This document shows, piece by piece, positions 2,342 to 36,726 of a stretch of DNA of 64,000 bases (its first letter is position 1; each line of letters begins with the position of its first letter). Position numbers and translations under genes: made by a program. Source of the DNA: Blautia sp. MSJ-19 (GTDB lineage Bacteria > Bacillota > Clostridia > Lachnospirales > Lachnospiraceae); assembly GCF_018918125.1 (NCBI RefSeq), contig NZ_JAHLQA010000035.1:62001-126000 (forward strand). Reading direction: 5' to 3'. Under the pieces are notes generated by a model that saw nothing but the letters and a program-made list of their open reading frames with translations, did no database searches and had not been told where the DNA came from.

Positions 2342-2559
2342 CTCCTGTCCTGAAATAAATATAAAATAATGCTTATATTATACATATTAAATATGCATTT
2401 TACAATGTATTTGATTTTCCATATATTAATACTTGTTGAAAGTATGTCTCGGGATATTACCTGTGAATAGTAACTTGAAAATAACTGCTATTTTTTCGAC
2501 ACAATATACAGAAAAAATATGGTACTGTCAGATCAGATGAAAGTAAAAACGAGATTGAT

Positions 2560-3897: not shown

Positions 3898-3925
3898 AAG
3901 GAGAAGCCTGAAAAGACTTCTCCTT
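3896..3925. terminator. Bidirectional hairpin terminator between MATE and rhaD
   Basis: AAGGAGAAG and CTTCTCCTT form a stem around a short loop. A T-rich tract lies on the minus-strand side (CTTTT), so it can serve both convergent genes. Confidence 0.75.
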
Positions 3926-3942
3926 CGTTATCTGTTCGTTAT

Positions 3943-18184: not shown

Positions 18185-19159
18185 TTACAGTGATTCCAGG
18201 AACTGAATCGCTTCTTCCGGCCAGCCTTCCACATCACTGCCACGGCCATCTCCAAAACCATGTTCACCTTTTTCACCCAGTTTCAGCTGGGTCTTAATTC
18301 CGTATTCTTTTAATCGCTCATACAAATAAACAGAGTTCTGATACGGCACTGTTGAGTCATCCTTACAGTGAACAATAAAACATGGGGGATAATCTGCATC
18401 AATCATGTTGGAAACTTTGTACTTTTCAATCTCTTCCTGAGATGCGTCTTTCCCACACATAATGTTCCAGATTGGTCTTTCACTTTCCAGACTTGGACCC
18501 GGAACAGATACAAACGTATAAATCGGGAACAATACCTTCGGTTTTGGCAGTCCGTAATGTGCATAACCTTTTTCCTTTGTTCCCCAGAGGTTTGTCAGAT
18601 TTGAACCGGCTGAAAATCCACATACACCATATTCTTCTGTTACAAGTCCGAATTCTTCCTTTCGACTTACAACAAATTTGTATGCTGCTGCCAGATCGTC
18701 CAGAGGCTTCGGCAGTACTTTATTGGTTCCTACACGGTAGTTCAATATAAATACATGATATCCCAGTTTATTGAAATGAACAGCTGTCGGAATGGATTCC
18801 ACTGCTGAGCATACACTGCAGTATGCACCACCTGCTATTACGAACAGAAACGGAGCTTTCTTATCTTCTTCCGGTGGAAAATGCATAACTTTTACATTCT
18901 TTTTCTGCTCGTCATCCTGGCATTCTTCATCGGTATATACCGAGTAAAGCACCTGCTGTTTCGCAGATAATTCCTGCAGTCTTTTCAGCCCTGCCAGAGC
19001 GCTTTCTGCGTTCCATGCAGAAATTCCCTGCTGCAGTCCCTCCAGGGAATATGCCTCAGAAGGTTTCCCGTTTACTTCTGATCTGTACAGCAACAGACCT
19101 CTGTATTCCTTAAGACTTTCTATCTCGTTCAGTTTTGATTTTACCGTAATTTCTTCCAT
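18185..19159 (-). CDS. Alpha/beta hydrolase, sugar-esterase-like
   Basis: A 324-residue cytoplasmic esterase of the alpha/beta-hydrolase fold (no signal peptide). An oxyanion-hole region (VIAGGAYCS), the nucleophile elbow GFSAGS (Ser), an acid in HCKDDSTVPYQN and a His in GEHGFGDG are all present. Similar proteins beside glycan loci remove acetyl groups from imported oligosaccharides, which fits the adjacent sugar ABC operon, though activity is inferred. Start at 19159 is supported by GACAGGAGGGT; an earlier in-frame ATG at 19198 lacks a ribosome site. A terminator separates it from the ABC genes, so it is transcribed on its own. Confidence 0.82.
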   Translation of the reverse strand: MEEITVKSKLNEIESLKEYRGLLLYRSEVNGKPSEAYSLEGLQQGISAWNAESALAGLKRLQELSAKQQVLYSVYTDEECQDDEQKKNVKVMHFPPEEDKKAPFLFVIAGGAYCSVCSAVESIPTAVHFNKLGYHVFILNYRVGTNKVLPKPLDDLAAAYKFVVSRKEEFGLVTEEYGVCGFSAGSNLTNLWGTKEKGYAHYGLPKPKVLFPIYTFVSVPGPSLESERPIWNIMCGKDASQEEIEKYKVSNMIDADYPPCFIVHCKDDSTVPYQNSVYLYERLKEYGIKTQLKLGEKGEHGFGDGRGSDVEGWPEEAIQFLESL

Positions 19160-19244
19160 ATTAAATACCCTCCTGTCAATATTTTTATTATACACCAACT
19201 GACTCTGTTATAAAAGGATGTCATTTTTTTGATATAAGACATAA

Positions 19245-19313: not shown

Positions 19314-20132
19314 TTATTCTTTTACCGCACCGGATGTCATTCCGCCAACGATGTACTTCTGTCCGATCATATAAACAATGATTACCGGAATACAGGTAAG
19401 TACGATATCTGCAAAAATGTAGTTCCAGTAGCTCTTGTTCTTTCCGAAGAACTGATATACAGCCATCGTCATCGGGAAGAGTTTACCCTTGCTGGACAGA
19501 TACAGAGGTGTAAGGAAATCACTCCATACTGTCATAAACTGCAGGATAAAGCAGGTTACCATGGTAGGTTTCAGAAGCGGCATGATGATCTTGAAGAACA
19601 GACTCAAAGGACCGGCTCCGTCAATGACCGCTGCCTCATCCAGCTCTACCGGAATCGAGATAACAAAGTTCCGGATTGTAAATACACAGAACGGTATCAT
19701 CGCACTTGTAAACACCAGTACAATACCAACACGGGTATCGTTCAGATGAAGTGCTGTCAGAACTCGTACCAGAGTTACATAGTTGACCGGGAAAAACAGT
19801 CCGCAGAGGACAAAGTAATACAGGAATGTATTTAATTTCGTTCTGTTACGGCACATAACAAATGCTGCCATTGCACAAAGCGTAACGCCAAGAGTGGTAG
19901 CTACCAGTGCATAGATCAAACTGTTTGCAAATCCCTGGATCAGATTACCTTTCTTGATAACTTCCGCATAGTTTGAGAATACCCATTCTGTCGGAAGTGC
20001 AAGGCTCATTCGTGCTGCCTCACCTTTGTTCTTAAAGGAGTTGATTAGTACCATATAAAATGGAAGGACAACGGTCAGGCACAGAAGAATACATACGACA
20101 TGTTTCAGTATTGTCTGAACATTCTTTTTCAT
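19314..20132 (-). CDS. Carbohydrate ABC transporter permease (MalG type)
   Basis: A 272-residue inner permease subunit with six membrane segments. It carries the binding-protein-dependent permease EAA loop (ELDEAAVIDGAGPLSLFFKIIMP, where EAAxxDGA contacts the ATPase). It pairs with the MalF-type permease encoded just upstream, whose stop overlaps its start. Family CUT1 importers move oligosaccharides. No ATPase gene is in the locus, so the complex probably borrows a shared MsmK/UgpC-type ATPase from elsewhere. Confidence 0.93.
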   Translation of the reverse strand: MKKNVQTILKHVVCILLCLTVVLPFYMVLINSFKNKGEAARMSLALPTEWVFSNYAEVIKKGNLIQGFANSLIYALVATTLGVTLCAMAAFVMCRNRTKLNTFLYYFVLCGLFFPVNYVTLVRVLTALHLNDTRVGIVLVFTSAMIPFCVFTIRNFVISIPVELDEAAVIDGAGPLSLFFKIIMPLLKPTMVTCFILQFMTVWSDFLTPLYLSSKGKLFPMTMAVYQFFGKNKSYWNYIFADIVLTCIPVIIVYMIGQKYIVGGMTSGAVKE

Positions 20133-21040
20133 TACTGCTGCACCTCCTGTTTACTCATCGTCTTAACAATCAATACGCCAATAACCGCAGTGATAATCAG
20201 AAGAATCGTATTTAATGCCGAAGACATTCCATACTGTCCTCTGGAGTAGAGCTGGAATGCATAAGTTGTAAGAACCTCTGTTGCATGTCCAGGACCACCG
20301 TTTGTGAGAACATAAACGATATCGAATACTTTCAAACCATATGTAATACCAAACACCAGGTTGATCATAATAGAGCCTGTCAACATCGGGAGTGTTACAT
20401 AGCGAAGTCGCTGCCAGAAGTTTGCACCGTCAATCTGTGCTGCTTCATAATAAGATTTCGGAATGGTATTCAGACCTGCCAGGAAAATCGTCATGACATA
20501 ACCGATACCTCTCCATGCATCCACGCCATAAATTGATTTCCATACAACTCCCAGATCAGAGAGCCATTTCTGTTTCAGGATTCCGAGATGCAGTGCATCC
20601 AGAATAGTATTCAGAAGTCCTGTATTGTAATTCAGGATGGATTTAAAGATCAGACCAATGATTACAAATGGAAGGATAGATGGCAAATACAGTAAAGTTC
20701 TGTAAAGTCCTTTTCCACGTAAACCTTCCTGAAGCATGATCGCGATCATAAGTGCCGGAATCAGTTTTACAATGTTGGAAATAATCGTAAATTTCAGTGT
20801 ATTTCCGATTCCACTTAAGTAGCCTTTATTTGATGTAAAAATCTCTTTGAAGTTCTGCAGTCCCACAAAATGTGTACCATTCAGGACGCTTCTGGAATTC
20901 CAGTCAGTAAAGGAATAACCAACGCCCATTGCACTCGGCAGAAGGAAAAAGATTACATACAGTGCCAGTGGTACGATTACAAACCACCAGGGATATATTT
21001 TTTTCTTATTCACTGAAGTTACCTCCTGTTCTTTCAGCAA
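20132..21040 (-). CDS. Sugar ABC transporter permease (MalF type)
   Basis: A 302-residue permease with six membrane segments, beginning in the cytoplasm with a short basic arm (KKKIYPWW). The EAA loop SYYEAAQIDGANFWQRLRYV is intact. It forms the heterodimer with the MalG-type subunit downstream (one-base overlap of stop and start). The gene follows the binding-protein gene after a 117-bp gap carrying a hairpin that may reduce permease expression relative to the binding protein. Confidence 0.93.
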   Translation of the reverse strand: MLKEQEVTSVNKKKIYPWWFVIVPLALYVIFFLLPSAMGVGYSFTDWNSRSVLNGTHFVGLQNFKEIFTSNKGYLSGIGNTLKFTIISNIVKLIPALMIAIMLQEGLRGKGLYRTLLYLPSILPFVIIGLIFKSILNYNTGLLNTILDALHLGILKQKWLSDLGVVWKSIYGVDAWRGIGYVMTIFLAGLNTIPKSYYEAAQIDGANFWQRLRYVTLPMLTGSIMINLVFGITYGLKVFDIVYVLTNGGPGHATEVLTTYAFQLYSRGQYGMSSALNTILLIITAVIGVLIVKTMSKQEVQQ

Positions 21041-21157: not shown

Positions 21158-22483
21158 TTATTCCCAGTTTGCATCTCCGACAGTCTTTGCAGCTTCTGCA
21201 CGGTTGGTATCCATATTTGCAAGAACATCGTTTGCTTCCATTTCACCCTGGCAGAATGCGATCATATCCTGTCCGAACTGCATCCAGTAGTCGTTTGTAT
21301 ATTTTGTGCCATTCTGAAGAACAGATACGTTCATTTTGTCTTTGTCAACTGTAGCAAGGAATTCTTCCTCTTCCGGCAGCCAGTGCTGTTCAAGATTTTC
21401 GTCTGTTACATCAAGGTTTGTGTAAGCCGGTGAGTTGTCAAGGATTTCCTGAAGGCTTTCTGTTGTTGTTACAAAGTTGAAGAATTCTCTTACAAGGTCT
21501 TCATGTTCTGTTCCTTTGTATCCGAACATTGTCGGGCCAGCCGGGCTTGTCGGATACCATGTATTGTCACCAAGTGGAATCAGGAACATTCCGAATTCAT
21601 CTTCTGTACCAGTATCTTCTTTGATCTGTTTGATGAAACTGGAGTTTGCCATTGCCATTGCACATGTTCTGTCACCATATTCGTTTGACATGTTTGTGCT
21701 GTCTGTTCCGATCCAGTCTTCTCCGAAGTATCCTGCATCAGAAAGCTCTTTGAATTCATTCAGTACTTCAAGCATTTTTTCGTTATCAGCAAATGTAGCC
21801 TGATTTGTATTCAGTGCATCATACAGTCCTGGTGTTGCTTCTTCATAAACTCCACCGATCTGGAAGAATGCAAGCTGATGCTGCCATCCGTCAGCTCCTG
21901 GCATAAACCATGGTGTGATTCCTGTATCTGCGATCTCAGCGCAGAGATCTTTCAGCTCCGCATAGGTAGTTGGAACTTCCCAGCCGTTTTCTTCAAACAG
22001 AGTTTTGTTATAAACCATTACATATTCAGGGGAGTTATTCCATACCTGAAGTCCGTATAATTTATCATTGTATGTACAGGATGCTTTTCTTGTTTCCGGC
22101 ATCAGACTTTCCCACTCAGCTCCTGTAAAGTCGATACAGTATTTCTCCGGATCAACGATGGTAGATTCAATTGCAAACGGATTGGACTGAATCCAGAAAA
22201 CATCTGCACAGGAATCTGTTGCCAGTTTTGACTGAAGAAGATCAGAATACTGATCTGCCGGGATTGTCTGAAGATCAACAGTTACATCATAAGTATCCTC
22301 AAAACGTTCCAGTGTTTCATCATAACGGTTATCCATCCAGCCTGTGGAAACCAGAATACTTAATTCTTCTCCTGCAAAGTCTTTGGTGTTGTCATCCGCA
22401 TAAACATTCACACTCAGACCTGCTGTCATAGATGCGAGCATAGCCGCTGCACAAGTTACCGCCCATAATTTCTTTCTTTTCAT
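21158..22483 (-). CDS. Extracellular sugar-binding protein of ABC transporter (locus 1)
   Basis: A 441-residue family-1 solute-binding protein. The N-terminus is a signal peptide (MKRKKLWAVTCAAAMLASM...) ending VYA before DDNTKDF. I see no lipobox cysteine at the cleavage point, which is unusual for a Gram-positive binding protein. The mature domain begins GEELSILVSTGWMDNRYDET, typical of CUT1 oligosaccharide binders. It is first in an operon with the two permeases, and divergent from the sensor kinase; direct repeats in the intergenic region probably bind the response regulator. The ligand is unknown but the GH31 enzyme at 25496 may act on it. Confidence 0.92.
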   Translation of the reverse strand: MKRKKLWAVTCAAAMLASMTAGLSVNVYADDNTKDFAGEELSILVSTGWMDNRYDETLERFEDTYDVTVDLQTIPADQYSDLLQSKLATDSCADVFWIQSNPFAIESTIVDPEKYCIDFTGAEWESLMPETRKASCTYNDKLYGLQVWNNSPEYVMVYNKTLFEENGWEVPTTYAELKDLCAEIADTGITPWFMPGADGWQHQLAFFQIGGVYEEATPGLYDALNTNQATFADNEKMLEVLNEFKELSDAGYFGEDWIGTDSTNMSNEYGDRTCAMAMANSSFIKQIKEDTGTEDEFGMFLIPLGDNTWYPTSPAGPTMFGYKGTEHEDLVREFFNFVTTTESLQEILDNSPAYTNLDVTDENLEQHWLPEEEEFLATVDKDKMNVSVLQNGTKYTNDYWMQFGQDMIAFCQGEMEANDVLANMDTNRAEAAKTVGDANWE

Positions 22484-22761: not shown

Positions 22762-24573
22762 ACGAAAACCAGAAGCCTTCAGTCAAAACTTTTTATTGCT
22801 TACCTCGGTATGGCAAGCCTTATTCTTTTTGCTTTTGCAAGCTTTTTCTATCTTTTTGTATCAGCCCGTTTGAAAGACAGCCAGCTCAGCGCCATGAATA
22901 CACTGAACTCCAGTTTTAAAGCTCAGGTAGATTCCTCCATTATGGACCTGGATACCGTATCCGTAAATATCAACTACAGTAATATATCCAAAAGTATTCT
23001 CGACCAGAAATTCGATCTTAACATTTCTGATAATATGCTTTCTGACATGTCTGATCTTTTTATTTCTCTCAGCGGAACAGAATTAAAAGCAGATCAGGTA
23101 AATCTGTATGATTTTTCCGGGTATGTCCTCCAGGCAGGGCTTTCTACCATAGTCAAAAAAGCCGATGAGTCTCGTTCAGACTGGCTGCAGCAGGCGCTTG
23201 ATGCAGACGGCAGAAAAGTACTTACAAAGCCTTATCCTACATATGAATATTCCAAATCAGCCAAATATGCTCAATGGATGATTTCCGACTATCGTTCCTT
23301 TACCAATCAGTATCGTCGAAAAGTCGGCGTAGTTGAAACGGTCAAGCAGTGCAAATCTGTTTTTAAAAGCATTATTTCTTATAAGAAACAAAACAGAACT
23401 ACAGCTGCGAATGTCTATGTATTTAATCAGGCGGGGGATCTGATCTATCCCTATGATATCTCAGAGGAAGATGCAGCTGAGATCAGGCCATACTTTACAC
23501 TCACAGATGCTTCCGAACCTTCCACCAAACTGACCAGTCCTTTGAACGGTCAGACAGAGTACGCTACGCGAACAGATTCCAGCTATACCGGATATGCTTA
23601 TCTCACGATCCAGCCAGAGTCCTTTATCCTCGAGCCTGTTTACAAAATGCTCCAGATTCTTCTGGCAGTTGTTGCAGCTTTTCTTCTGGCTTCTGTTCTT
23701 GTCTCTTACCGGCTTTCCCGTTCCGTCGTAAAACCGGTCAAACACCTGAAACATATCATCCAGAGAATGGAGTTGGATACTCTGGGTCAGGAAAAAGTCA
23801 CTTCCTATCCGGTTTCTGTCAACGAGCTTGAAGAACTTTACCAGGCATTTCAGCTTATGAGTGAAAACCTTAAAATTTCAATGCAGGAAGTTACAGAGGC
23901 AAAAGAGCAGGAAATAAGAGCCCGAAATATGGCTCTTCAGACACAGATCAATCCACATTTTTATTACAACTCTCTGTCAAGTATCATGGTTCTTGCGGAA
24001 AACGGTGATAATGACACAGTTGCAAAAATGTGCCGGAATCTGTCTCTGATCATGCGTTATATTACAGATACAAGCAGTACGACTGTAACTCTCGCTGACG
24101 AACTGGATTATGTAAAAAAATATCTTTACTGTATGAAAGTACGATACCAGTCCAGTCTGAATTACAGCATAGATGTGGATGAAAATCTCCTCTCAGAAGA
24201 AGTTCCCAAGCTGCTGATCCAGCCGCTCGTCGAAAATGCGATCAAATACGGCTCAGACTGTGCGCCGCCATGGACGATCACCATACGCAGTGTCCTCACG
24301 GATAACAGCTGGAAGATCTCCGTCAGCGACACCGGTCCGGGATTTTCAGAAGAAGCCTGTGAAAAAATTGCACAAAATCTCGCCAAGGCTGATCAGAATC
24401 CAGGACTTCCGGAACTCAGAATCAATGGACTTGGAACCATAAATGTTTACTTAAGGTGGAAAATCTTCTGTAAAGGAAATATTATTTTTGAATATGGAAA
24501 CACCGAAGATGGACACGGAATCGTTTCCATAGGACGATACATATCAGCGGAAAAAGAAGCAATTCAGCAATAA
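22762..24573 (+). CDS. YesM-type sensor histidine kinase with apparent ACG start
   Basis: About 603 residues if it starts at 22762. A first membrane segment (from about residue 9), a large extracellular sensor domain, a second segment near residues 285-310, HAMP, then the His-kinase box (TQINPHFYYNSLSSI; phospho-His in NPHF) and an ATPase domain (LVENAIKYG, DTGPGF). AGGAGGAG ends seven bases before an in-frame ACG where ATG would be expected (ACG AAA ACC AGA). The first in-frame ATG is at 22810, inside the membrane segment and without a ribosome site. It probably senses external sugar or the loaded binding protein and phosphorylates the regulator encoded next. Confidence 0.88.
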   Translation, partial: TKTRSLQSKLFIAYLGMASLILFAFASFFYLFVSARLKDSQLSAMNTLNSSFKAQVDSSIMDLDTVSVNINYSNISKSILDQKFDLNISDNMLSDMSDLFISLSGTELKADQVNLYDFSGYVLQAGLSTIVKKADESRSDWLQQALDADGRKVLTKPYPTYEYSKSAKYAQWMISDYRSFTNQYRRKVGVVETVKQCKSVFKSIISYKKQNRTTAANVYVFNQAGDLIYPYDISEEDAAEIRPYFTLTDASEPSTKLTSPLNGQTEYATRTDSSYTGYAYLTIQPESFILEPVYKMLQILLAVVAAFLLASVLVSYRLSRSVVKPVKHLKHIIQRMELDTLGQEKVTSYPVSVNELEELYQAFQLMSENLKISMQEVTEAKEQEIRARNMALQTQINPHFYYNSLSSIMVLAENGDNDTVAKMCRNLSLIMRYITDTSSTTVTLADELDYVKKYLYCMKVRYQSSLNYSIDVDENLLSEEVPKLLIQPLVENAIKYGSDCAPPWTITIRSVLTDNSWKISVSDTGPGFSEEACEKIAQNLAKADQNPGLPELRINGLGTINVYLRWKIFCKGNIIFEYGNTEDGHGIVSIGRYISAEKEAIQQ

Positions 24574-24597: not shown

Positions 24598-25374
24598 ATG
24601 AATTATACAGTAATCGTTGCGGAGGACGAGGAACTGCTGTTAAATAATCTGGTTCAAAAAGTCGGAAAAGCGGATCCGGACTTCCAGGTTGTAGGAACTG
24701 CCCAGACAGGTGACCAGGCACTTTCACTGGTTGAAAAACTTCATCCGGATCTGATCATTACAGATATCCGGATGCCGGTCATGGATGGAATCGCTCTGCT
24801 CACCAGAGTCAGAAGTCAGTTTCCTTTTATCAGATTTATCATTACCAGTGGATTTTCAGACTTTGAATATGCTAAAAAAGCAATCACTCTGAAAGTATCC
24901 GATTACCTTCTGAAGCCCGTCGATCTGGATGAACTTCAGGAAGCACTCCAGAAAATCAAACGCGACTTTCAGATTGCCCAAAAAGACTATGAATCGGTAT
25001 TCAACGCTGGAACCGCTGCAAAAACACCATCTCAAATTGCTTCCATCCTGAAGGATTTTATTGTAAAAAATTATGGAGATGATATTAATCTGAATCTGAT
25101 CGCGGATAACATGAATTACAGTCCGAGTTATCTGACCAAGATTTTCTGTCAGGCCTATGACTGTACACCCACAAAATATTTGCTCAACCTGAGGATGGAT
25201 CAGGCACAAAAACTGCTGATTCATGAACCTACGCTTTCTATCCGGCAGATTAGTGAAATGTGCGGTTATCATGATCAGGGGTATTTCAGCCGTATTTTTA
25301 AGAAGCATACCGGCAAAAGTCCACTTGAGTTTCGTGGTGAAAATGATGACACCGTGGTTGCCAGCGAAATTTAA
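24598..25374 (+). CDS. Response regulator with AraC-type DNA-binding domain (YesN type)
   Basis: A 258-residue regulator. Residues 1-120 are the receiver with acidic pair (AEDEE), phospho-acceptor Asp in ITDIRMPVMDG and Lys in LLKPVD. Residues about 150-250 hold two AraC helix-turn-helix units (INLNLIADNMNYSPSYLTKIF and TLSIRQISEMCGYHDQGYF, each 20-21 long and cited in part). AGAGGAAT precedes the ATG, 24 bp after the kinase. Together they form a YesM/YesN pair that most likely activates the divergent ABC operon through the TACTTTTTTCAC repeats. Confidence 0.92.
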   Translation: MNYTVIVAEDEELLLNNLVQKVGKADPDFQVVGTAQTGDQALSLVEKLHPDLIITDIRMPVMDGIALLTRVRSQFPFIRFIITSGFSDFEYAKKAITLKVSDYLLKPVDLDELQEALQKIKRDFQIAQKDYESVFNAGTAAKTPSQIASILKDFIVKNYGDDINLNLIADNMNYSPSYLTKIFCQAYDCTPTKYLLNLRMDQAQKLLIHEPTLSIRQISEMCGYHDQGYFSRIFKKHTGKSPLEFRGENDDTVVASEI

Positions 25375-25495: not shown

Positions 25496-27868
25496 TTACT
25501 GTCCAATCACAACCGTTTCATAAACAGCTTCTTCCATACCTTCAAAGCTTCCCTGTCTTTCCTCCACAGTCAGTTCACCCTTCTGATCATTCCATATCAA
25601 TTTCGTGATTGCGTATGCACCCTTCTCAAAGTTATAGTTATTTCCCTCATCTTCATAAAGAGCAAACTCTGCATCTGCTCCCGGGTAAACCATCAGTTTC
25701 ACCGGTCCTTCCGGTTTCTGAGATGCATAAGTAAGTCCGTCTGCAACCGGAAGAATGCTTCCTGCTTTTACAAAAATCGGCATCTGATCGATCGGAGCAT
25801 CTACGGTTACATACTGACCACCTTCATATTTCTTTCCGGTCCAGTAATCATACCAGTCAGCTCCCTGTGGAAGATAGCAGTCCCATGTTTTTTCACGGTC
25901 AAGTTCTGTGCTTTCCGGTCCGTAATACATTGGCTCTGTAACTGCACAGATCAGAAATGATGGTCCGAACATAAACTCATTTTCAATCTTTCTTGCAGTC
26001 TTATCCTGCGGGAAATCAAACAGAAGGCTTCTCATGATCGTATAATCATTGAAGTGAACAGCTCCTGCAAGAGAATAGATATATGGCATCAGATGGTATC
26101 TCAGCTTAATAGATTTCTCAATTGCATCATAGAACATCGTTCCTTTGTCACCGAAGTTCCAGATCTCTCTCGGAGTATCTGTTCCGTGAGAACGGAACAT
26201 CGGAAGGAAAGTTCCCATCTCAAGCCATCTGGTATAAAGCTCGCAGTATCCTTTGTCCTTCACGCCTTCATTATATTTGCCCTGCCAGAACCACTTCGGT
26301 TCCGGATCTGTATTGCAGCCACAGCCACGATTCTGCCATTTATCAGCTACCGTAAAGAATGCACCGATATCCAGTGTCCAGTACGGATAACCACTCAGTC
26401 CCATATTCAGTCCTTCTACGATCTGGATCTTGAAGTTGTCCCAGGAAGCACAGGTATCGCCGGACCACAGCATTGCCGCATATTTCTGTCCGGATGCATA
26501 ACCGGAACGGGTCAGGTTGAGGACACGTTTGTCCTCGGTGTCTTTTCTCTGATTTTCATAAATGCCCTTTGCATGCATCAGTGCAAATGCATTGGCAACA
26601 GCCGGATCCAGATATTTCTTGTGCTCGCCACCGACCAGTTCATATCGCTCCCATGGCTCTCTCTTCACGCCACCATTCCAGTCAGGACCGGAGAAAGGCT
26701 CTGTGGAATCGCACCACCAGGATTCGAATCCTTCATCAAAAAGTCCTTCTTTTGCCTGTTTCCAGTACATTTCACGGGCTTTTTCATCAAAAGCATTATA
26801 CGTTGCATAATCATAAAGAAGATATCCTGCGTCAAAAAATTCCTGATGATTTTTGCCGCCCGCATTCATGTTCGGCCATACAGAAACCATACTGTGTGCA
26901 TGCATTTTGTTGATCTCTTCCATACATTCTTTGTTGTCACCGTAGCGTTCTTTGTCCAAGATCTTTTCGCCCCAGTTGCCTGGTTCCCAGGTATTCCAGT
27001 CCTGAACGACACAGTCGATCGGAACACCAATCTCTCTGTAATGACGCACGATCTCAGCCAGTTCTTTTGCTGTGTAATACTGCTCTTTGGACTGGATATA
27101 ACCATATGCCCACTTCGGCAGCATCTGTGCTTTACCGGTCAGATAACGGTAGTCATGAATGATCCCATCCATTGTATTTCCACCGAGGAAATAATAATCG
27201 ATCTGGTCTACCGTATCCAGAAACAGATAAGATTCTCTACCCTCATCGTTAAAAGTCATCAATGAACAGCAGTCAAACAGGACTCCATATCCCTCGGTAG
27301 ATACGAACATCGGCATCGGGATACGCATATTGTGCTGATACAGATACTGTGTATGTTCACGGTAGTTGTAGATACCTTCTTCTGCCTGTCCAAGTCCATG
27401 GATCTCTTCGTCTTCTTTCCAGTCGAAGAAAACTCTTGCACGGTATCCGTCTCTGACTTTTTCTGCTTTGAGGTTCTGGATAAAGTTTCTTTCACCGTCT
27501 ACTGTCTTTACACGGTTGATGATTGGTTTTTCGCCGCCTGTATTATAGTGTACGACATCAATCCTGGTGAGATCCGCTTTGTTCTGCTCCAGCCACACAC
27601 TTCCATCTGCATGTTTCCAGGTGATCCCTCCTGTTTTGAGATTCAATTCTGCCTGCACTGCGGATGTTTTTACTGTAACTGCCCCGTCTGCTTCTGCTGC
27701 TTCAAATGGAACCTGCGGATACTCTTTTTTCTCGATAATCAGAGATTCCTGCTCTGTTTTTACTTCATCTTTTGCGATCACGCAGCGGATGATTTCATCT
27801 GTCATCGGTATCAGGCGATATTTCATACCTGCTGCAGAAGTTTCTACATATCTTTCCGTTCTTTTCAT
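25496..27868 (-). CDS. Glycoside hydrolase family 31 (alpha-xylosidase/alpha-glucosidase-like)
   Basis: A 790-residue cytoplasmic enzyme (no signal peptide). N-terminal beta-sandwich (about 1-230), catalytic barrel (about 240-600) and C-terminal beta domains. The nucleophile Asp lies in WWCDSTEPF and the acid/base Asp in LWSGDTCASWDNF, both GH31 signatures. The DSTEP form of the nucleophile motif occurs in alpha-xylosidases, so xyloglucan- or isoprimeverose-type oligosaccharides are plausible, but alpha-glucosidase cannot be excluded. AAGGAG precedes the start. An AraC regulator lies upstream in the same direction behind a terminator. The ABC operon at 19-22 kb probably delivers the substrate. 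Confidence 0.9.
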   Translation of the reverse strand: MKRTERYVETSAAGMKYRLIPMTDEIIRCVIAKDEVKTEQESLIIEKKEYPQVPFEAAEADGAVTVKTSAVQAELNLKTGGITWKHADGSVWLEQNKADLTRIDVVHYNTGGEKPIINRVKTVDGERNFIQNLKAEKVRDGYRARVFFDWKEDEEIHGLGQAEEGIYNYREHTQYLYQHNMRIPMPMFVSTEGYGVLFDCCSLMTFNDEGRESYLFLDTVDQIDYYFLGGNTMDGIIHDYRYLTGKAQMLPKWAYGYIQSKEQYYTAKELAEIVRHYREIGVPIDCVVQDWNTWEPGNWGEKILDKERYGDNKECMEEINKMHAHSMVSVWPNMNAGGKNHQEFFDAGYLLYDYATYNAFDEKAREMYWKQAKEGLFDEGFESWWCDSTEPFSGPDWNGGVKREPWERYELVGGEHKKYLDPAVANAFALMHAKGIYENQRKDTEDKRVLNLTRSGYASGQKYAAMLWSGDTCASWDNFKIQIVEGLNMGLSGYPYWTLDIGAFFTVADKWQNRGCGCNTDPEPKWFWQGKYNEGVKDKGYCELYTRWLEMGTFLPMFRSHGTDTPREIWNFGDKGTMFYDAIEKSIKLRYHLMPYIYSLAGAVHFNDYTIMRSLLFDFPQDKTARKIENEFMFGPSFLICAVTEPMYYGPESTELDREKTWDCYLPQGADWYDYWTGKKYEGGQYVTVDAPIDQMPIFVKAGSILPVADGLTYASQKPEGPVKLMVYPGADAEFALYEDEGNNYNFEKGAYAITKLIWNDQKGELTVEERQGSFEGMEEAVYETVVIGQ

Positions 27869-28056: not shown

Positions 28057-28926
28057 TTAACTATTTTTACTCTTTTCATCTTTTGGGGTTTTTCCAACGT
28101 GTTTTTTGTAAAGTCGATAGAAATTGGAAATATTATTAAATCCACATTCCATCGCAATGTCTGTCACATTCAACCTGCCCTCCCGCAATAATTCTCTTGC
28201 ATGGTTGATGCGCATTCTGGTCACATAATCGCTGAAACTTATATTTGTGACCTTTCGAAAATATGAAGAAAAATAATTCGAACTCATATATACCGATGCA
28301 GCCACATCCTCCAGCGTAATTCTCTCACAGTAATGTGCATCTATATATGCAAATGCCTGCTCCAGACGTTTCATGGCATTTTTCTTTTCTTTCAGCATCT
28401 CATCTGATTTTGATTCGTCCTGATAAGTGCGGATCAGCATAGTCAGAATACGAAGGACATTGGCCTTGATCATCAGCTGATATCCTTCTTTGCGTCCCTG
28501 CCATTCTTTATAAATTTCCTGAATACCGGCACGGATTTCCGGATTGATCTCATCTTCTCTGCCGATACGGTTCTTAAAATTACTTCCACGTTCTACAAAT
28601 GGTTTCAGGTATCTGGTATCAAACACACTGATCTTCTCTGCCACAAATTCCGGAGAAAAAATCATTACGAGCAGTTTCATGTCATCCCCGATCAGATTCC
28701 ATCCATGAGGCTCTACATTATTAAAAATGATCACATCATCTTTTTCCATCGTGTATTCCTGTCCATTGACAAAATAATTTCCCTTACCCTCCAGCACACA
28801 GGTGATTTCAAAATAACTGTGCCAGTGCCAGGTTCCCGGCTTACTGTTCTCCGGCGTCAGACGCACCTCCGCAATCTGAAAAGGGAACTCTTTATCAAGT
28901 GGAATATTGTCTCGTTCAAGTCTCAT
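28057..28926 (-). CDS. AraC family transcriptional regulator with cupin sensor
   Basis: A 289-residue regulator. An N-terminal cupin (GTWHWHSYFEITCVLEGKG, then FNNVEPHGW) binds the effector. The C-terminal 100 residues carry two AraC helix-turn-helix motifs (ITLEDVAASVYMSSNYFSSY and NVTDIAMECGFNNISNFYRL). Start at 28926 is set by AGGAGG seven bases upstream; the frame is open further to 29034 without a ribosome site. Its position between the methyltransferase and GH31 genes, in the same direction as both, makes either a candidate target. The sugar-locus assignment is favoured because cupin AraC proteins commonly control glycosidase genes. Confidence 0.88.
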   Translation of the reverse strand: MRLERDNIPLDKEFPFQIAEVRLTPENSKPGTWHWHSYFEITCVLEGKGNYFVNGQEYTMEKDDVIIFNNVEPHGWNLIGDDMKLLVMIFSPEFVAEKISVFDTRYLKPFVERGSNFKNRIGREDEINPEIRAGIQEIYKEWQGRKEGYQLMIKANVLRILTMLIRTYQDESKSDEMLKEKKNAMKRLEQAFAYIDAHYCERITLEDVAASVYMSSNYFSSYFRKVTNISFSDYVTRMRINHARELLREGRLNVTDIAMECGFNNISNFYRLYKKHVGKTPKDEKSKNS

Positions 28927-29035
28927 GATCTGCCTCCTGTCCAATATACAGATGACAGATGTCTTTTTATCTCTGCCCTGTAATACAGACAGTATAGCAG
29001 ATTTCATTTTTGTTCGCAAACCAGCCTCTTGCATG

Positions 29036-29120: not shown

Positions 29121-29146
29121 TATAACTGTTCACCGTAACGATTTAT
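29121..29146. repeat. Dispersed palindromic repeat, degenerate copy
   Basis: TAACTGTTCA is followed directly by CCGTAACGATTTAT. These are the two ends of the 34251 and 9311 elements with the middle missing. It overlaps the stop codon of the methyltransferase gene. Confidence 0.4.
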
Positions 29147-31971
29147 CTGCCCAGGGACTCTACATAAGTTCCTTTTACATCGCTCCAGTTCTTATCTGCA
29201 TAGTCAAGAAGATATGCAGCCTGCTCCAGAGACATTTCCGGGAACAGAAGGAATAAGCTGTGAGAACCATATTTCTTAACGATACGGTCTACATTCTTGA
29301 TCCAGTCTTCGAACTCTCCTGAGTAAACTTTTACCCAGATGGATTTTCCTGCTGCAATTGCTTTGTCGTAGATCACATCCCAGTCCGGAAGTGTTCCGTC
29401 CGGGCCTGCATCTCCGCTTGTCCACTGCAGAGCGTCAATTCCATCAATTTCCATCAGTGCATCCATGTGTTTGATCGCAGCCGGTCCATCAAGATGATAC
29501 AGGACATGGTCTACTTTTTCACTCTGCTCACGTAAGGATGGCTGAATGTATTTTCTGAAGTCTTCCGGTGACATCATTGCGGAGAAGTCGCACTGTAATT
29601 TTACAGTTCTTCCAGGTCCCCAGATCTGGAACACCGTGTAAGCATTTCCACCTTCTTCGTCTTTGATGATATCATAGAAACGATCATAGTATTCATAGTA
29701 AATATCCGTTACTTCCTGAATTCTCTCACCGATCATATCCGGCTCATCCAACAGGTCAAACAGGATATCCTGTGCGCCGCGGAGAGAAGCAAGTACGTCG
29801 ATATTTTCCATAAGGTCAGGCATATCTACAACAAAATCGTCTCCTGCCAGTTCCTTACAGTCTTTTGCAAGCTGGATGTGTTTCTTGAACCATTTGTTCT
29901 CCGGATCGAATTCCAGTTTCGGCACGCCTTCCCAGCTATCCAGACATTTGTTGAACCATACGGTATCTTCTTTGAATCCAATCTCAGATCCGAGGTAAGA
30001 TGCTACAGATCCTGGTCCAAAGTCGATGTTCAGGTTCGGGAAACTTTCTCCAAGGAATGCATGTGTATCACAGAAATAACGATAACGGTCTACGATCCTC
30101 TGTGCATTCTGGTATTTGTCTTCCATGTCTTTCCATTTCAGCTCTTCCGGCATGTTGTAATATTTACCCTGGCAGATCTGATCCAGATAACCACCTTCAA
30201 CAGGGGTTCCGTCTGAATACTGCTCTACTTCCGGTCTTCTTGCAATGACGCACATCAGCGGTCTTCCGGTGTTTTTGTGCTGCCAGTAATTTGCAAATTT
30301 TTCTTTGGTTGCTTCCCAGTTAAGCTTGTATCCTTCTCCCGGTTTCGGAAGCTGGATCTTGCTTAAATCTACAGAGCCTTTTTCAAATTTAGGTGTTTCA
30401 GAAACTTTTTCTTCTGCTTTTGGAGCTTCTTCTTTGACTTCCTCCTGTACCGGTTCTGCACCTTCTACCGGAAGATCATCAAATTCACCGGCTGCTGCTT
30501 TTGCACAGAACCCGGATTCCGCATATTTCTTAGCCTGCTCTGCTGCGGAAGCTGCATCTTCTGTATAAGCATCTGCACCGATCTCATCTGCAAATTCCTG
30601 ACTGATCGGAGCACCACCAACCATGATCTTGATACGGTTACGGAACGGCTGTTTCAGAAGTGCTGCAACGGTATCTCTCAGAGACGGCATGGTTGTTGTA
30701 AGAAGAGCAGAAAGAGCTACGATACTTGCTTCTTTGTGTGCATTTACCTCATCAATGAATGTCTGTATCGGTACATCAACACCAAGGTCGATAACTTCGA
30801 ATCCGGCACTCTCAAACATCATGCCTACAAGGTTTTTACCGATATCGTGAAGGTCACCTGCTACAGTACCAAGGATAATAGTTCCTGCGCTTCCTGCTTC
30901 ACCTGTTGCAAGATATGGTTTCAGTACATCCACGCCGGCTTTCATAGCACGTGCTGCTGCAAGCATCTGTGGAACAAAGATAATCTCTTTCTTGAAGTTA
31001 TCACCTACGACGGCCATAGCTCCGATCATTGCATCATTTAAGATAGCAGTCGGATCACAGCCTGCATCAAGTGCTTCCTGAACAGCCTGTCCGATTTCTT
31101 TATTCTTACCATCCTGAGTTAATTTGAAAACTTTCTGCATCTTCTCATCGAGTGGAGAAGCCGGTGCCGGCTGTACTTCTTCAGCAGCTTTGTTTCCGAA
31201 TTTCTCAATATACTGCAGGCAGTATTCATCACGCTCTAACAGTGCATTTGTCGCATAGATCATACCGATCATGTTCTTGTTGGTCGGGTCAACGATCGCA
31301 CTGTCCATACCGGCATTCATAGCCAGTACCATAAATGCCTGGTTGATATTTTTTCTTGTAGGCAGACCGAAAGAAATATTGGAAAGTCCACTTGTGATGT
31401 GGATGTCCGGATATTCGTATTTAATTCTTCTGCAACAGTCTGCAAATACAGTTAATGCAGTCTGATCTGTTCCTAAAGTTACAACCAGTGGGTCAATATG
31501 TAAACGGCTTGGTGCAATGCCGTACTGTTTTGCTTTTTCCATAATTCCGAAGAAAATTTTCATACGTCGCTCTACGGAATCCGGAATACCATCATTATCA
31601 CACAGAAGTGCTACACATTCCCAGTCTGTGTCTGCGATTACCGGGAAAATGGTATCAATTTTATCACCTTCAAGAGATACAGAGTTGATAAGACCTGGTC
31701 TCTTGCAGAATGGAATCGCTGCTACGCAGGATTTTGCACTCGGGCTGTCTACGCAGATCGGTGTATCTGTTACTTCCTGTACAAGATCGATCATCCATTT
31801 CAGTGTTTCTACTTCTACGTCCTCTTCTACAGACGCACATACGTCCAGAAATGTGGCACCCGCTTCTGCCTGCATTCTGGCTCTCTCTCTGATCAGGTCC
31901 GCGTCCTTCTCAGCGATTGCCTTGGCAACTGACGGAATAGATCCGTTCAGTTTCTCTCCTATTATAATCAT
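29143..31971 (-). CDS. Three-domain corrinoid methyltransferase (pterin MT + B12 protein + URO-D MT)
   Basis: One 942-residue chain with three parts. Residues 1-265 resemble AcsE/MetH pterin methyltransferases (GEKLNG start, LINSVS, IDPLVVTLG, GLSNISFG). Residues 275-490 are a corrinoid protein: helical cap, then the B12 domain with D373-x-H375-x-x-G378 (GDLHDIGKN) for cobalt binding. After a charged Glu/Lys/Pro linker (about 495-540), residues 541-942 form a URO-D-type domain like MtaA/MtbA/CmuA. There the usual zinc H-x-C motif reads YHLDGP, Cys replaced by Asp, so it is probably not a thiol methylase. A methyl donor to corrinoid to tetrahydrofolate path in one protein is the likely role. 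The divergent gene encodes a corrinoid activator. Substrate unknown. Confidence 0.88.
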   Translation of the reverse strand: MIIIGEKLNGSIPSVAKAIAEKDADLIRERARMQAEAGATFLDVCASVEEDVEVETLKWMIDLVQEVTDTPICVDSPSAKSCVAAIPFCKRPGLINSVSLEGDKIDTIFPVIADTDWECVALLCDNDGIPDSVERRMKIFFGIMEKAKQYGIAPSRLHIDPLVVTLGTDQTALTVFADCCRRIKYEYPDIHITSGLSNISFGLPTRKNINQAFMVLAMNAGMDSAIVDPTNKNMIGMIYATNALLERDEYCLQYIEKFGNKAAEEVQPAPASPLDEKMQKVFKLTQDGKNKEIGQAVQEALDAGCDPTAILNDAMIGAMAVVGDNFKKEIIFVPQMLAAARAMKAGVDVLKPYLATGEAGSAGTIILGTVAGDLHDIGKNLVGMMFESAGFEVIDLGVDVPIQTFIDEVNAHKEASIVALSALLTTTMPSLRDTVAALLKQPFRNRIKIMVGGAPISQEFADEIGADAYTEDAASAAEQAKKYAESGFCAKAAAGEFDDLPVEGAEPVQEEVKEEAPKAEEKVSETPKFEKGSVDLSKIQLPKPGEGYKLNWEATKEKFANYWQHKNTGRPLMCVIARRPEVEQYSDGTPVEGGYLDQICQGKYYNMPEELKWKDMEDKYQNAQRIVDRYRYFCDTHAFLGESFPNLNIDFGPGSVASYLGSEIGFKEDTVWFNKCLDSWEGVPKLEFDPENKWFKKHIQLAKDCKELAGDDFVVDMPDLMENIDVLASLRGAQDILFDLLDEPDMIGERIQEVTDIYYEYYDRFYDIIKDEEGGNAYTVFQIWGPGRTVKLQCDFSAMMSPEDFRKYIQPSLREQSEKVDHVLYHLDGPAAIKHMDALMEIDGIDALQWTSGDAGPDGTLPDWDVIYDKAIAAGKSIWVKVYSGEFEDWIKNVDRIVKKYGSHSLFLLFPEMSLEQAAYLLDYADKNWSDVKGTYVESLGR

Positions 31972-32248: not shown

Positions 32249-33709
32249 ATGAAAACATACTCCGTTACAGTTTTACCATCTCAGCAAATTCTCCAGGCCT
32301 GCGAGGGAGAAAATCTGCTTCGGATTCTTCAGAAAAACGCACTGGCCCCGGATGCTCCCTGCGGCGGCAATGGAAAATGTGGTAAATGCATCGTTTATAT
32401 AAATGGCAGGAAATCTCTGGCTTGCCAGACTGTGATCCGGGACAATATCACAGTCCGTATTCCTGAAAAATCTGACATGCAGATCCTGAAACATGGCACT
32501 TCTGTTTCCGTACAGCCCGATGGCCGTGACAGATATCTCCTTGCATACGATATCGGAACCACAACTGTTGTCTGTTATCTTCTGGACGGTATCTCCGGTG
32601 AGAAACTTACTGAAGAAAGTATCCTGAATCCTCAGACTGCTTACGGTGCCGATGTGATCTCTCGTATCGAATATGTTATGCGTAACAAAACTTCTGAACT
32701 TCAGGACTGTATCGTTCGCACACTTTCAGAACTTGCGGATGTTGTATCTGCCAGAGCAGGTATCTCTCCGGCTGAGATCACTCTCGCCTGTGTTGTCGGT
32801 AACACTGCCATGCATCATCTTTTTCTTGGTATCGATCCTTTGCCGCTGACCGTGCCGCCCTATATGCCAAAGGTTTCCAACACCATGGAGATTCCTGCCG
32901 CCCCGCTGCTTCCTCTTCATCCGGAGGGACGTATCCGTATCCTTCCCAATATAGCTGGTTTTGTCGGTGCCGATACCGTAGCATGTATGACTTCTGTTCA
33001 TTTTGACCAGCTTGATGAATTGACTCTTATGATCGACATTGGTACAAATGGGGAAATGGTCCTGGGGGACCGCCACCGTCAGATTGCCTGTTCCACTGCT
33101 GCCGGGCCGGCTTTTGAAGGAGCCAGAATCTCTTGCGGCATGCGGGGAATTTCCGGAGCCATCGATCACGTTTCTGTAAAAAATGAAGAAGTTTTTTATC
33201 ATACCATCGGAAATGCTGAGATCAGGGGATTGTGCGGATCCGGACTGCTGGATCTGACCGCCGCCCTTCTGGATACTGGATTCTTAAGTGAAGCCGGTCT
33301 GATGCAGGCTCCAGAATATCGAATCGGTACTTCTGCGGTCACTCTGACCCAGAAAGATATTTCCGAAGTTCAATTTGCCAAATCTGCCATCCGCTCCGGT
33401 ATTGAACTTCTCGCCAAACGGATGCAGGTATCTGTAGGAGATATCCGTAAAGTATATCTTGCCGGAGCTTTTGGAAATTACATGAACCCAGTCTCTGCAT
33501 GCCGGATCGGTATGATACCTCCTGTGCTTCTTGATCGCATTGAAACGATTGGAAACGCCGCCGGAGAAGGTGCAAAGCTCTGTGCCTTAAATCGCCATGA
33601 ATTTGCTTACAGCCAGTTTCTTGCTGCCAAAACAGAATTTCTGGAGCTGGCATCCTGTCCGGAATTTCAGGACTGTTATATTGATCATTTAATGTTTGGA
33701 GAAGAATAG
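32249..33709 (+). CDS. Corrinoid-activation protein, RACo-like (2Fe-2S + ASKHA/DUF4445)
   Basis: A 486-residue cytoplasmic protein. An N-terminal ferredoxin domain has cysteines 38, 44, 47 and 59 (C-x5-C-x2-C-x11-C) for one [2Fe-2S]. After a linker comes an ASKHA ATPase-like domain with YDIGTTTVVCYL and MIDIGTNGE phosphate loops. RACo/RamA-type activators use ATP and low-potential electrons to reduce inactive Co(II) corrinoid back to Co(I). It is divergent from the three-domain methyltransferase across 277 bp and is followed by DUF2284 after two bases, which ties the three genes together. Confidence 0.9.
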   Translation: MKTYSVTVLPSQQILQACEGENLLRILQKNALAPDAPCGGNGKCGKCIVYINGRKSLACQTVIRDNITVRIPEKSDMQILKHGTSVSVQPDGRDRYLLAYDIGTTTVVCYLLDGISGEKLTEESILNPQTAYGADVISRIEYVMRNKTSELQDCIVRTLSELADVVSARAGISPAEITLACVVGNTAMHHLFLGIDPLPLTVPPYMPKVSNTMEIPAAPLLPLHPEGRIRILPNIAGFVGADTVACMTSVHFDQLDELTLMIDIGTNGEMVLGDRHRQIACSTAAGPAFEGARISCGMRGISGAIDHVSVKNEEVFYHTIGNAEIRGLCGSGLLDLTAALLDTGFLSEAGLMQAPEYRIGTSAVTLTQKDISEVQFAKSAIRSGIELLAKRMQVSVGDIRKVYLAGAFGNYMNPVSACRIGMIPPVLLDRIETIGNAAGEGAKLCALNRHEFAYSQFLAAKTEFLELASCPEFQDCYIDHLMFGEE

Positions 33710-33711
33710 AA

Positions 33712-34242
33712 ATGAATTACGAAGAACTTAAAAGCCTGGCTTTAGAATCAGGATTTACTCATACAGCACCGCTGGATACTGCAACCATCGAATTAAAACA
33801 GGATGTCCGGGACATGTGTGCCCAGGGATGCCAGCAGTATGCCAAGCGTTGGAGCTGTCCTCCCGGATGTGGAACTCTGGAACAGCTTCGCGGAAGTATT
33901 TATTGTTATAAAGAGGGAATTCTTGTACAGACTGTCACAAAATTAGAAGATGAATTTGACTGGGATGGCATGATGAAGGCGCAGAATCTTCACCAGGAAC
34001 ATTTCCTTGCGTTCCTCGAAAAACTCCACGCCTCGCATTTTCCTTTCCTGCCACTCGGAACCGGCTGCTGCATGCTCTGCAAAACCTGCACCTACCCGGA
34101 TACACCCTGCCGCTTCCCGCGAAAAAGGATTTCTTCGATGGAAGCATGCGGTATGCTGGTATCGGAAGTATGTCAGAAGAATAACCTGAAATACTATTAT
34201 GGCCCGAATACGCTTGCGTATGTGGCATGTGTGCTGATGTGA
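33712..34242 (+). CDS. DUF2284 cysteine-rich metal-binding protein
   Basis: A 176-residue protein of the DUF2284 family (predicted metal-binding). Cysteine clusters are CAQGC, WSCPPGCG and, near the C-terminus, GCCMLCKTCTYPDTPC, enough for one or more Fe-S or zinc sites. No enzymatic role is known. It begins two bases after the stop of the RACo-like gene, so translation is coupled. DUF2284 proteins are often seen beside corrinoid methyltransferase systems. A role in reductive activation or metal handling is an inference from context. Confidence 0.82.
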   Translation: MNYEELKSLALESGFTHTAPLDTATIELKQDVRDMCAQGCQQYAKRWSCPPGCGTLEQLRGSIYCYKEGILVQTVTKLEDEFDWDGMMKAQNLHQEHFLAFLEKLHASHFPFLPLGTGCCMLCKTCTYPDTPCRFPRKRISSMEACGMLVSEVCQKNNLKYYYGPNTLAYVACVLM

Positions 34243-35784: not shown

Positions 35785-36726
35785 TTATTTCTCAGCAGTA
35801 ATCTTAATATCCCCATCCTCACTCTTAAGTTCCAGGGAATCCTGTGGTTTATTTTCTGTGGTGAGTACCTGCTCATCGTCCTCATCTGTCATTACTTTTC
35901 CAAGAGTTTCCGGGATATCGATATCACTTGCCTCTGCCTCTATAGAAAGACCCTCAACCACTTCTTTCGGGATACTAAGTTTGATGTCTCCCAGACTGCA
36001 TGTGATTTTGTTTTTGCCCTGGAATACAGTATTTTCGGCTTTTACATCTCCGTCATCCAGTGTAATCTGACTGTTTGTGACAGAAATATTTTTGAGATGC
36101 AGATCTCCGAGTTCCATTTCCATCTCAAGAGAATTCAATGTACTGTCTTTCATCTTCACATCACCATCTGAACAGGAGATCACTGCTTTCTTTACTACCA
36201 AAGACTCCATATCCAGATCTCCATATCCCATCTTACAGGAAAAACCACTTAAGTCGGTTTTCTTCGGAATATACACCGTTACTTTATTTGAATTCTCAAT
36301 CACATGGCTCTGGCCGAGCATTTCCTGAAGAAAGTTAACATCAATATGGATATACGAATATGACTCATGTCCTTTTTTCTCCACAATATTCAGTGTATTT
36401 CCCTGAACCTGATAGGAAAGCGGAAGCATTCCGTCATTTGTTTCAATATTATAGGCTATATAGAAATTATCATCATCCGATTCTTTCACGTCCAGATCCA
36501 GATTCCGAAGATCGATATTCACGGCAGAAAACGCATCGATCTTTGTCTTGCTCAAGATCGCATGACTGTCGCTTGAATCCATCGTTGCAGTCCCGCTGAT
36601 TCTGTTCAGGTCTGCTGATTTTATATAATTTCTGCCGCCTGATGCAACACCAACACCAAAGAACAGAATACCCACTGCACAAAAGATGCCACCGGCTGCC
36701 AGTAAACGCTTATTTGTTTTTTTCAT
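35785..36726 (-). CDS. DUF4097 beta-strand repeat protein (membrane anchored)
   Basis: A 313-residue protein with an N-terminal membrane segment (residues about 8-30), then a long beta-helical DUF4097 region made of repeated strands such as DVKESDDDNFYIAY, SCSDGDVKMKDST and LDDGDVKAENT. It is probably exposed outside the membrane as an adhesion- or scaffold-like domain with no known activity. Its start overlaps the end of the DUF1700 gene by 17 bp, in a PadR-DUF1700-DUF4097 operon, a common Firmicutes arrangement for envelope-stress modules. Confidence 0.87.
   Translation of the reverse strand: MKKTNKRLLAAGGIFCAVGILFFGVGVASGGRNYIKSADLNRISGTATMDSSDSHAILSKTKIDAFSAVNIDLRNLDLDVKESDDDNFYIAYNIETNDGMLPLSYQVQGNTLNIVEKKGHESYSYIHIDVNFLQEMLGQSHVIENSNKVTVYIPKKTDLSGFSCKMGYGDLDMESLVVKKAVISCSDGDVKMKDSTLNSLEMEMELGDLHLKNISVTNSQITLDDGDVKAENTVFQGKNKITCSLGDIKLSIPKEVVEGLSIEAEASDIDIPETLGKVMTDEDDEQVLTTENKPQDSLELKSEDGDIKITAEK

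Follow-up and report, generated by a model that had tools for sequence, protein, structure and literature searches.

Within a 64,000-nucleotide stretch of the Blautia sp. MSJ-19 genome (contig NZ_JAHLQA010000035.1, positions 62,001 to 126,000; hereafter the window) lies a gene for a 942-residue protein that unites three modules of corrinoid-dependent methyl transfer in a single chain (Table 1): a methyl-tetrahydrofolate (methyl-H4folate):corrinoid methyltransferase (MT2), a corrinoid carrier, and a domain with the URO-D fold presumed to act as the substrate:corrinoid methyltransferase (MT1). A preliminary description, made from the letters of the window, had recognized all three modules, which domain matches and relatives with the same chain now confirm; it had also placed the gene correctly, with its strand unstated. 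The open reading frame (ORF) runs on the minus strand, and frame 1 of the plus strand over 29143-31971 contains many stops.

Pfam assigns Pterin_bind to residues 17-228 (73.4 bits), B12-binding_2 to residues 284-351 (64.4 bits) and B12-binding to residues 364-476 (86.4 bits). The N-terminal module belongs to the MT2 proteins of the O-demethylase type, with NCBIfam NF005719 scoring 348.3 bits over residues 1-265 against a cut-off of 259. The PDB entry 4o0q—labelled in the structure library as the methyltransferase component of an O-demethylation system—matches residues 1-258 with 323.2 bits, and methyltransferases of the corrinoid iron-sulfur protein are far weaker (2yci, 145 bits; 2e7f, 136 bits). 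As the preliminary description had anticipated, the N-terminal part models onto a pterin fold, residues 1-262 superimposing on the O-demethylase MT2 4o1f with 55% identity and a TM score of 0.92, and the B12 module resembles a solved corrinoid-binding protein, 1y80 (residues 286-482, 178.6 bits, 56% identity). This central module is a methyltransferase corrinoid protein by its B12-binding_2 cap and its B12-binding domain with DxHxxG; TIGR02370 reaches 201.6 bits, slightly below its cut-off of 215.3. D373, H375 and G378 are present as previously reported, and the motif is unchanged across a 13-row carrier alignment. The linker that follows differs in length and sequence between orthologues, with a predicted local distance score (pLDDT) below 50 at residues 500-525. 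Chain and RACo-type activator, encoded together, have the composition of a corrinoid demethylase system: MT1, carrier, MT2 and activator.

Table 1. Features of the fusion gene and its surroundings in the window
Feature	Position	Strand	Basis
Single-chain MT2 - corrinoid carrier - URO-D-fold MT1, 942 aa	29143..31971	-	ORF, Pfam, NCBIfam, structure model
MT2 (methyl-H4folate:corrinoid methyltransferase, O-demethylase type), residues 1-262	31186..31971	-	NF005719, 4o0q, 4o1f
Corrinoid carrier (helical cap + B12-binding Rossmann domain), residues 276-490	30502..31146	-	PF02607, PF02310, 1y80
Cobalt lower-ligand motif D373-x-H375-x-x-G378	30838..30855	-	Sequence; carrier alignment
Variable Ala/Glu/Pro/Lys-rich linker ahead of MT1, residues 491-544	30340..30501	-	Low pLDDT; orthologue comparison
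URO-D-fold domain, presumed substrate:corrinoid methyltransferase (MT1), residues 545-942	29146..30339	-	
H826-L-D828, replacing the H-x-C zinc motif	29488..29496	-	Sequence; alignment of 42
ATP-dependent corrinoid reductive activator of the RACo type, encoded divergently from the fusion gene	32249..33709	+	PF14574 231.9 bits, PF17651 166.8 bits
DUF2284 predicted metal-binding protein, after RACo	33712..34242	+	PF10050
Cupin-domain regulator of the AraC family, downstream of the fusion, same strand	28057..29034	-	Pfam
GH31, closest solved relatives alpha-xylosidases	25496..27868	-	Pfam; 5jou 470.8 bits, 2xvg 440.8, 7kmp 432.7
AraC-type response regulator	24598..25374	+	Pfam
Sensor histidine kinase	22810..24573	+	Pfam
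Sugar-type solute-binding protein	21158..22483	-	PF01547
ABC importer permease	20132..21040	-	PF00528
ABC importer permease	19314..20132	-	PF00528
Alpha/beta-hydrolase, BD-FAE (acetyl/feruloyl esterase-like) family	18185..19198	-	PF20434

The C-terminal domain has the UroD/MtaA-type TIM barrel of the URO-D superfamily. By sequence, Pfam reports no URO-D match on the full chain at E 0.001, PF01208 reaches 11.2 bits on the C-terminal part alone (E 0.18, under the cut-off of 23.9), and a PDB profile search with a 21-sequence alignment of the domain returns no match at E ≤5. H-x-C...C, which we take to be the zinc site of the thiol methylases MtaA, MtbA and CmuA, is missing. Its position reads H826-L-D828-G, and because the last cysteine of the chain is C794, none occurs near the C-terminus; the preliminary description had noted both and had considered a thiol methylase unlikely, a judgement that the missing zinc motif bears out for a zinc enzyme. 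TIGR01463 and NF004889 do not match the chain either, and the coenzyme M-like thiol methylase was rejected on the absence of the motif. Also absent is E-x14-E-x20-H, presumably the motif of the zinc O-demethylases OdmB and VdmB. Among 42 aligned sequences, the window's included, the zinc cysteine is lost in every one, and H826, D828, H835, C794, several aspartates and eight tryptophans are invariant. Such a uniform loss would suit a domain that binds substrate or regulates without catalysis, in a chain that relays the methyl group of another MT1 to folate. We hold this to be highly improbable: 65 columns are invariant across the 42 sequences, with Asp, His or Trp in many, the stand-alone form of the domain is maintained beside glycan genes, and a zinc-free MT1 of the URO-D type is active. 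The account in PMC13222342 gives the activity of this protein, CdmB, as unaffected by EDTA or zinc, its crystal as zinc-free, and a Moorella O-demethylase as likewise free of zinc, so that loss of the cysteine is no argument against demethylation.

The three-domain architecture is real, conserved and compatible with a single origin. A scan covering 299 genomes from the same family scored at most two candidates per genome, and its tallies of stand-alone domains are minimum values. It found the chain among the listed matches of three genomes, the window's (100%), G263 (88%) and G179 (76%); other genomes have a stand-alone C-terminal domain, or encode MT2 and carrier separately. A named collection yielded 187 relatives of the C-terminal domain, the best 80 of which form, with the window, a set of 81 loci. 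The chain is present in 24 of the 80, 21 times as a called ORF (L085 is cut by a contig end, and the best MT2 alignment of L095 is only partial) and three times as an open frame (L096, L102 and L144); its hosts include Blautia schinkii, B. caecimuris, several Blautia metagenome-assembled genomes (MAGs), Robinsoniella peoriensis and rumen Clostridia. The remaining 56 loci belong to Lachnospiraceae, other Bacillota, Treponema, another Spirochaetaceae genome and a Propionibacteriaceae MAG. A simple longest-first ORF caller missed the MT1 ORF in seven of the 80 loci because of shadow ORFs. Chance or an assembly artefact was rejected, the same chain recurring in further genomes and in these 24 loci. 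On an 80-row tree that omits L085, the 24 fusion rows, the window's among them, require two changes, which we read as one gain within a stand-alone MT1 family and one later loss (L080 and L097, separate again). Some genomes carry multiple, in part strongly divergent, matches to the domain—seven in G179 and six in G214, one of the latter (C93:30591-31670) adjoining a GH31 gene—hinting at different methyl-sugar specificities.

Partial precedents for such a chain exist, CmuA joining MT1 and carrier (PMC13222342, PMC9930637) and MetH joining folate and cobalamin modules (PMC12478193). The earlier statement that known demethylase systems use separate proteins therefore holds only in part: natural partial fusions came before, and the novelty is the presence of all three demethylase modules in one chain. 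Similarly, the claim of a complete donor-to-folate path in one protein stands for the three modules; the path is not wholly contained in the chain, since the RACo-type activator is presumably needed in trans. CmuA, the natural fusion for chloromethane, has two modules in the reverse order, the methyltransferase N-terminal and the carrier C-terminal (PMC9930637), with MT2 residing on a separate protein, CmuB (PMC13222342); the order MT2-carrier-MT1 sets our chain apart. MetH likewise places a folate module before a cobalamin module on a single polypeptide and provides the best Foldseek matches of the full model. In contrast to MetH, the chain carries its URO-D-fold donor domain at the C-terminus, gives no Pfam match for homocysteine-binding or reactivation domains, and scores 240.8 bits against the 1010.85 of the metH profile, the match extending over its folate and cobalamin modules (residues 2-524); for want of a homocysteine domain, methionine synthase was rejected. 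The aromatic O-demethylases (OdmB/VdmB/MtvB/MtoB) share the three modules and the activator, and the nearest solved MT2 structures (4o0q/4o1f) come from O-demethylation, but their modules are separate proteins acting on aromatic methyl ethers and the MT1 described here has neither HxC nor E-x14-E-x20-H. Also close in design is the CdmB/CdmC/CdmA system of Acetobacterium dehalogenans, described in PMC13222342 as a zinc-free URO-D-fold MT1, a carrier, an MT2 assigned to H4folate and an ATP-dependent activator; it differs in comprising three separate proteins, in acting on haloalkanes and in its hydrophobic channels, where the present domain has invariant Asp, His and Trp. A literature search over titles and abstract openings of the top matches, with subscription literature mostly outside it, returned no natural MT2-carrier-MT1 chain and no corrinoid sugar demethylase. 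An artificial fusion of methyltransferase and carrier has been built as a practical catalyst (PMC9930637); a natural single-chain demethylase could serve the same end and would add the folate module to what that construct joins.

Across the 81 loci, the domain gene keeps company with genes for glycan use. In what follows, cluster labels (GH31, GH95, GH106, BPa0997-like, MtaB and importers) stand for one member each checked against Pfam or the PDB, the rest being assigned by sequence clustering. A GH31 cluster gene occurs in 29 loci, the main importer clusters in 35 and both in 24; where GH31 and domain ORFs were both called (27 loci), the GH31 gene directly adjoins in 13 and shares the strand in 25. 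Chance would place GH31 in about 1.5 of the 81 loci (≤21 kb each), by hand arithmetic from 64 matches, all of GH31, in 20 domain-carrying genomes of about 75 Mb that partly overlap the loci. The link appears on separate branches of the tree, in Spirochaetota, the Propionibacteriaceae (Actinomycetota) MAG and several Bacillota lineages. Treponema-type loci have the order binding protein-permease-permease-MT1-GH31, the last two abutting or overlapping. A glycan neighbour, either a Pfam-checked importer or a member of the counted glycosidase clusters, was found in 60 of the 81 loci; the other 21, some from short contigs, have neither. Methylated sugars, suggested earlier as the substrate on the strength of nearby glycan genes, thus gain support from a much larger body of evidence. 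Of ten further neighbours, the only one to extend the link with glycans is a GH3 glycosidase in L080; by Pfam the others include surface proteins (L127, L139), a sensor protein and a helicase (L131), a thioredoxin-like protein (L099), a histidine kinase (L120), an amidohydrolase (L118) and nothing clear in L088. A 532-residue neighbour in L092, from a cluster of four loci, has no Pfam or PDB match, and a 326-residue neighbour in L093, also of four loci, has no Pfam match. In five Lachnospiraceae loci (L111, L114, L115, L116 and L117; by name mostly MAGs from rumen) an MtaB-cluster gene is found close to the stand-alone domain, and in four of them a carrier is too, as if the use of methanol and of methyl ethers from pectin were combined.

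Some loci point to the pectic polysaccharide rhamnogalacturonan II (RG-II). In L118, a GH95 gene, a gene for an apiosidase-GH43 protein (PF13204, 320 bits) and one for a 909-residue protein matching BPa0997 with 651 bits precede the domain gene on its own strand; GH139 (2-O-methyl-fucosidase) was rejected for the 909-residue protein in favour of this BPa0997-like assignment. BPa0997 itself is presumably the counterpart of BT0997 and a member of GH138. Genes further along encode a CE15-type esterase and a GH2-malectin protein; the C-terminal part of the latter has an 87-bit match to BT_1002. BPa0997-like genes also stand beside the domain gene in L119 and L120 (the L118 member being the one compared with the PDB), and L120 additionally carries GH31. 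A GH106 cluster gene follows the domain gene in six loci; the one member checked has as its best PDB relatives 5mwk/5mqm (54 bits), the structures of BT_0986 (PMC6828813). On RG-II, BT0997 acts as alpha-galacturonidase, BT1012 as beta-apiosidase and BT1002 as alpha-L-fucosidase; as summarized in the same source, Bacteroides thetaiotaomicron cuts 21 of the 22 RG-II linkages, the exception being 2-O-Me-Xyl-alpha1,3-Fuc, which accumulates on an RG-II oligosaccharide (PMC7939467). Importer, demethylase and alpha-xylosidase would be the set expected for this leftover disaccharide, and RG-II 2-O-methyl-xylose is the best single substrate candidate. A second, distant URO-D protein accompanies the zinc-less domain in these loci (L118:19748-20872, L119:7499-8593 and L120:13947-14987), with an intact zinc motif, HHCG, about where a weak alignment puts HLDG (PF01208, 39 bits for the L118 member); it might serve 2-O-methyl-fucose, the other methyl ether of RG-II, or be an acceptor-side methylase.

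The run of RG-II-type glycosidase genes around the MT1 of L118 also weighs against a different donor, an aryl methyl ether or other small methyl compound, for a chain of the same architecture and direction whose glycan neighbours would be general or due to chance. Ether demethylases of the URO-D type described in PMC13222342 (MtvB, OdmB, VdmB and MtoB) do have methoxylated aromatics as substrates, CdmB has haloalkanes, the nearest solved relative of the MT2 domain comes from an O-demethylation system, and 21 loci lack a checked glycan neighbour. Since the link with GH31 is far above expectation and spans the lineages listed above, and since profile searches of the PDB give the C-terminal domain no relative, we consider this unlikely but credible. 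An O-methyl sugar from a source other than RG-II, such as the 4-O-methyl-glucuronate of glucuronoxylan, is a special case of the sugar proposal, with which its probability overlaps. It is suggested by CE15 glucuronoyl-esterase-like genes in L118 (PF22244; PDB relatives) and L128, and no RG-II-specific gene was recognized within the window; we nevertheless think it quite unlikely, as the GH31 of the window resembles alpha-xylosidases, the MT1 of L118 stands among apiosidase, BPa0997-like and BT_1002-like modules, and no alpha-glucuronidase family turned up among 40 Pfam-searched proteins, a selection of MT1-locus neighbours outside the window.

Partner genes were compared between 20 genomes with the domain and 30 without it. 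A carrier other than MetH is present in all 20 (the fused one counted in three; 17 of 17 for stand-alone domains) and in 5 of the 30, a biased control, hand-picked from low numbers with MetH-like best scan matches. In an unselected block of 50 genomes taken whole (G101-G150), 3 of 3 with the domain and 6 of 47 without it have a carrier (Fisher p 0.004). Counts of RACo and dedicated MT2 cover the domain-carrying genomes: RACo occurs in all 20, and a dedicated MT2 in nine, exactly those that also possess a short methyltransferase that is AcsE-like by score, an adjacent AcsB having been checked in the window's genome only. There, AcsB and the AcsE-like gene (31%) are about 3.6 kb apart. The preliminary description had made the case depend on whether separate partners always accompany the chain, and the answer is mixed: the window's genome yields no carrier match at E 1e-20 besides the fused one, but its AcsE-like methyltransferase is separate, and G263 and G179 have further separate carriers and MT2 genes. 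No dedicated MT2 was found in 11 of the 20 genomes (G110, G161, G214, G093, G157, G220, G158, G181, G255, G098 and G253), so the MT1 family as a whole cannot have folate as its acceptor. Thirteen carrier stretches and one RACo stretch of these genomes were examined. RACo lies beside the carrier in five (L147, L149, L150, L151 and L155), L149, L155 and L160 have confirmed MtaA/CmuA-like URO-D proteins, as in type 1 mlp clusters, and MtaB stands beside a carrier in two genomes. The type 1 mlp clusters (PMC10418091) likewise combine URO-D proteins with carrier and RACo, and in some domain-carrying genomes of non-acetogens the carrier lies in a cluster of similar appearance; they differ by several SCMT-like proteins, no H4folate methyltransferase and a proposed role in methyl-sulfur or methyl-selenide metabolism. 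Given these mlp-like clusters and MtaB genes, the acceptor of the donor module seems to vary, and in acetogens the fusion seems to tie the module to folate. Methanol release via MtaB was rejected as the general acceptor route without MT2, MtaB occurring in 2 of the 20 domain-carrying genomes and none of the 30 others. L149 also contains, at 2131-4483, a URO-D-thioredoxin fusion beside a CobW-like gene.

On balance, we favour the view that the chain catalyses corrinoid-dependent O-demethylation, the substrate being some O-methylated plant sugar, whatever its kind, and the product methyl-H4folate. A function as a one-chain demethylase that would feed methyl-H4folate is well supported by comparison, and methylated sugars are the likely substrate class. 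The computations show the domains, folds and motifs, the nested position of the fusion within a stand-alone family, the glycan setting and the co-occurrence with carrier and activator; catalysis, direction, substrate class and the order of demethylation and hydrolysis we infer. The ABC importer (19.3-22.5 kb) would take up a plant-wall oligosaccharide bearing an O-methyl sugar. Co(I) of the central carrier, docked at the C-terminal domain, would accept the methyl group, and the carrier would move on flexible linkers to the N-terminal MT2 and methylate tetrahydrofolate, with RACo, the divergently encoded neighbour, re-reducing any Co(II) formed. The freed sugar linkage would become accessible to the adjacent alpha-xylosidase-type GH31, and methyl-H4folate would enter the acetyl-CoA pathway, apparently present in the window's genome (AcsB and AcsE-like gene). 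Several points weigh against this view: the eleven genomes without a dedicated MT2, the 21 loci without a glycan neighbour, the predicted TM score (pTM) of 0.51 for the full-length model, by which domain docking is not predicted, and the zinc-free cleavage of an unactivated sugar ether, for which there is no explanation. Corrinoid methyl-transfer steps are reversible in principle, and by this established chemistry methyl-H4folate could be used in the opposite direction to methylate a cell-surface glycan; with importers and exo-glycosidases all around, and a two-component system such as accompanies sugar uptake, this is barely credible.

More specifically, the URO-D-fold domain may found a zinc-free family acting on sugar methyl ethers, with RG-II 2-O-methyl-D-xylose, especially in 2-O-Me-Xyl-alpha1,3-Fuc, as substrate. 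Acetogens such as Blautia would import the disaccharide and demethylate it into the acetyl-CoA pathway, GH31 afterwards cutting the alpha-xyloside; in non-acetogens, the same MT1 would use carriers of mlp-type or MtaB-type clusters and pass the methyl group to another acceptor. Taken jointly, these proposals are tentative, possible rather than probable. Were they true, anaerobes would have a way to exploit the methyl ethers in plant glycans, a fate could be named for the one RG-II disaccharide still left uncut in the gut, and pectin breakdown would be linked to acetogenesis through cross-feeding. Corrinoid ether cleavage would come to include alkyl ethers besides aryl ones, with no need of zinc, which would be surprising mechanistically.

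No Rfam match to a cobalamin riboswitch was obtained at gathering score between 17 and 39 kb. DUF2284 lies directly 3′ of a RACo-type activator in many corrinoid clusters (the window, L052, L057, L059, L061, L064, L067, L082 and L124), suggesting a possible role in corrinoid activation or metal delivery. Genes for a HAAS-domain protein and a DUF4097 toastrack protein overlap on the same strand at 35785-37318, and a GH65-family gene followed by a permease gene (41678-44029) forms another glycan locus, some 10 kb away from the fusion.

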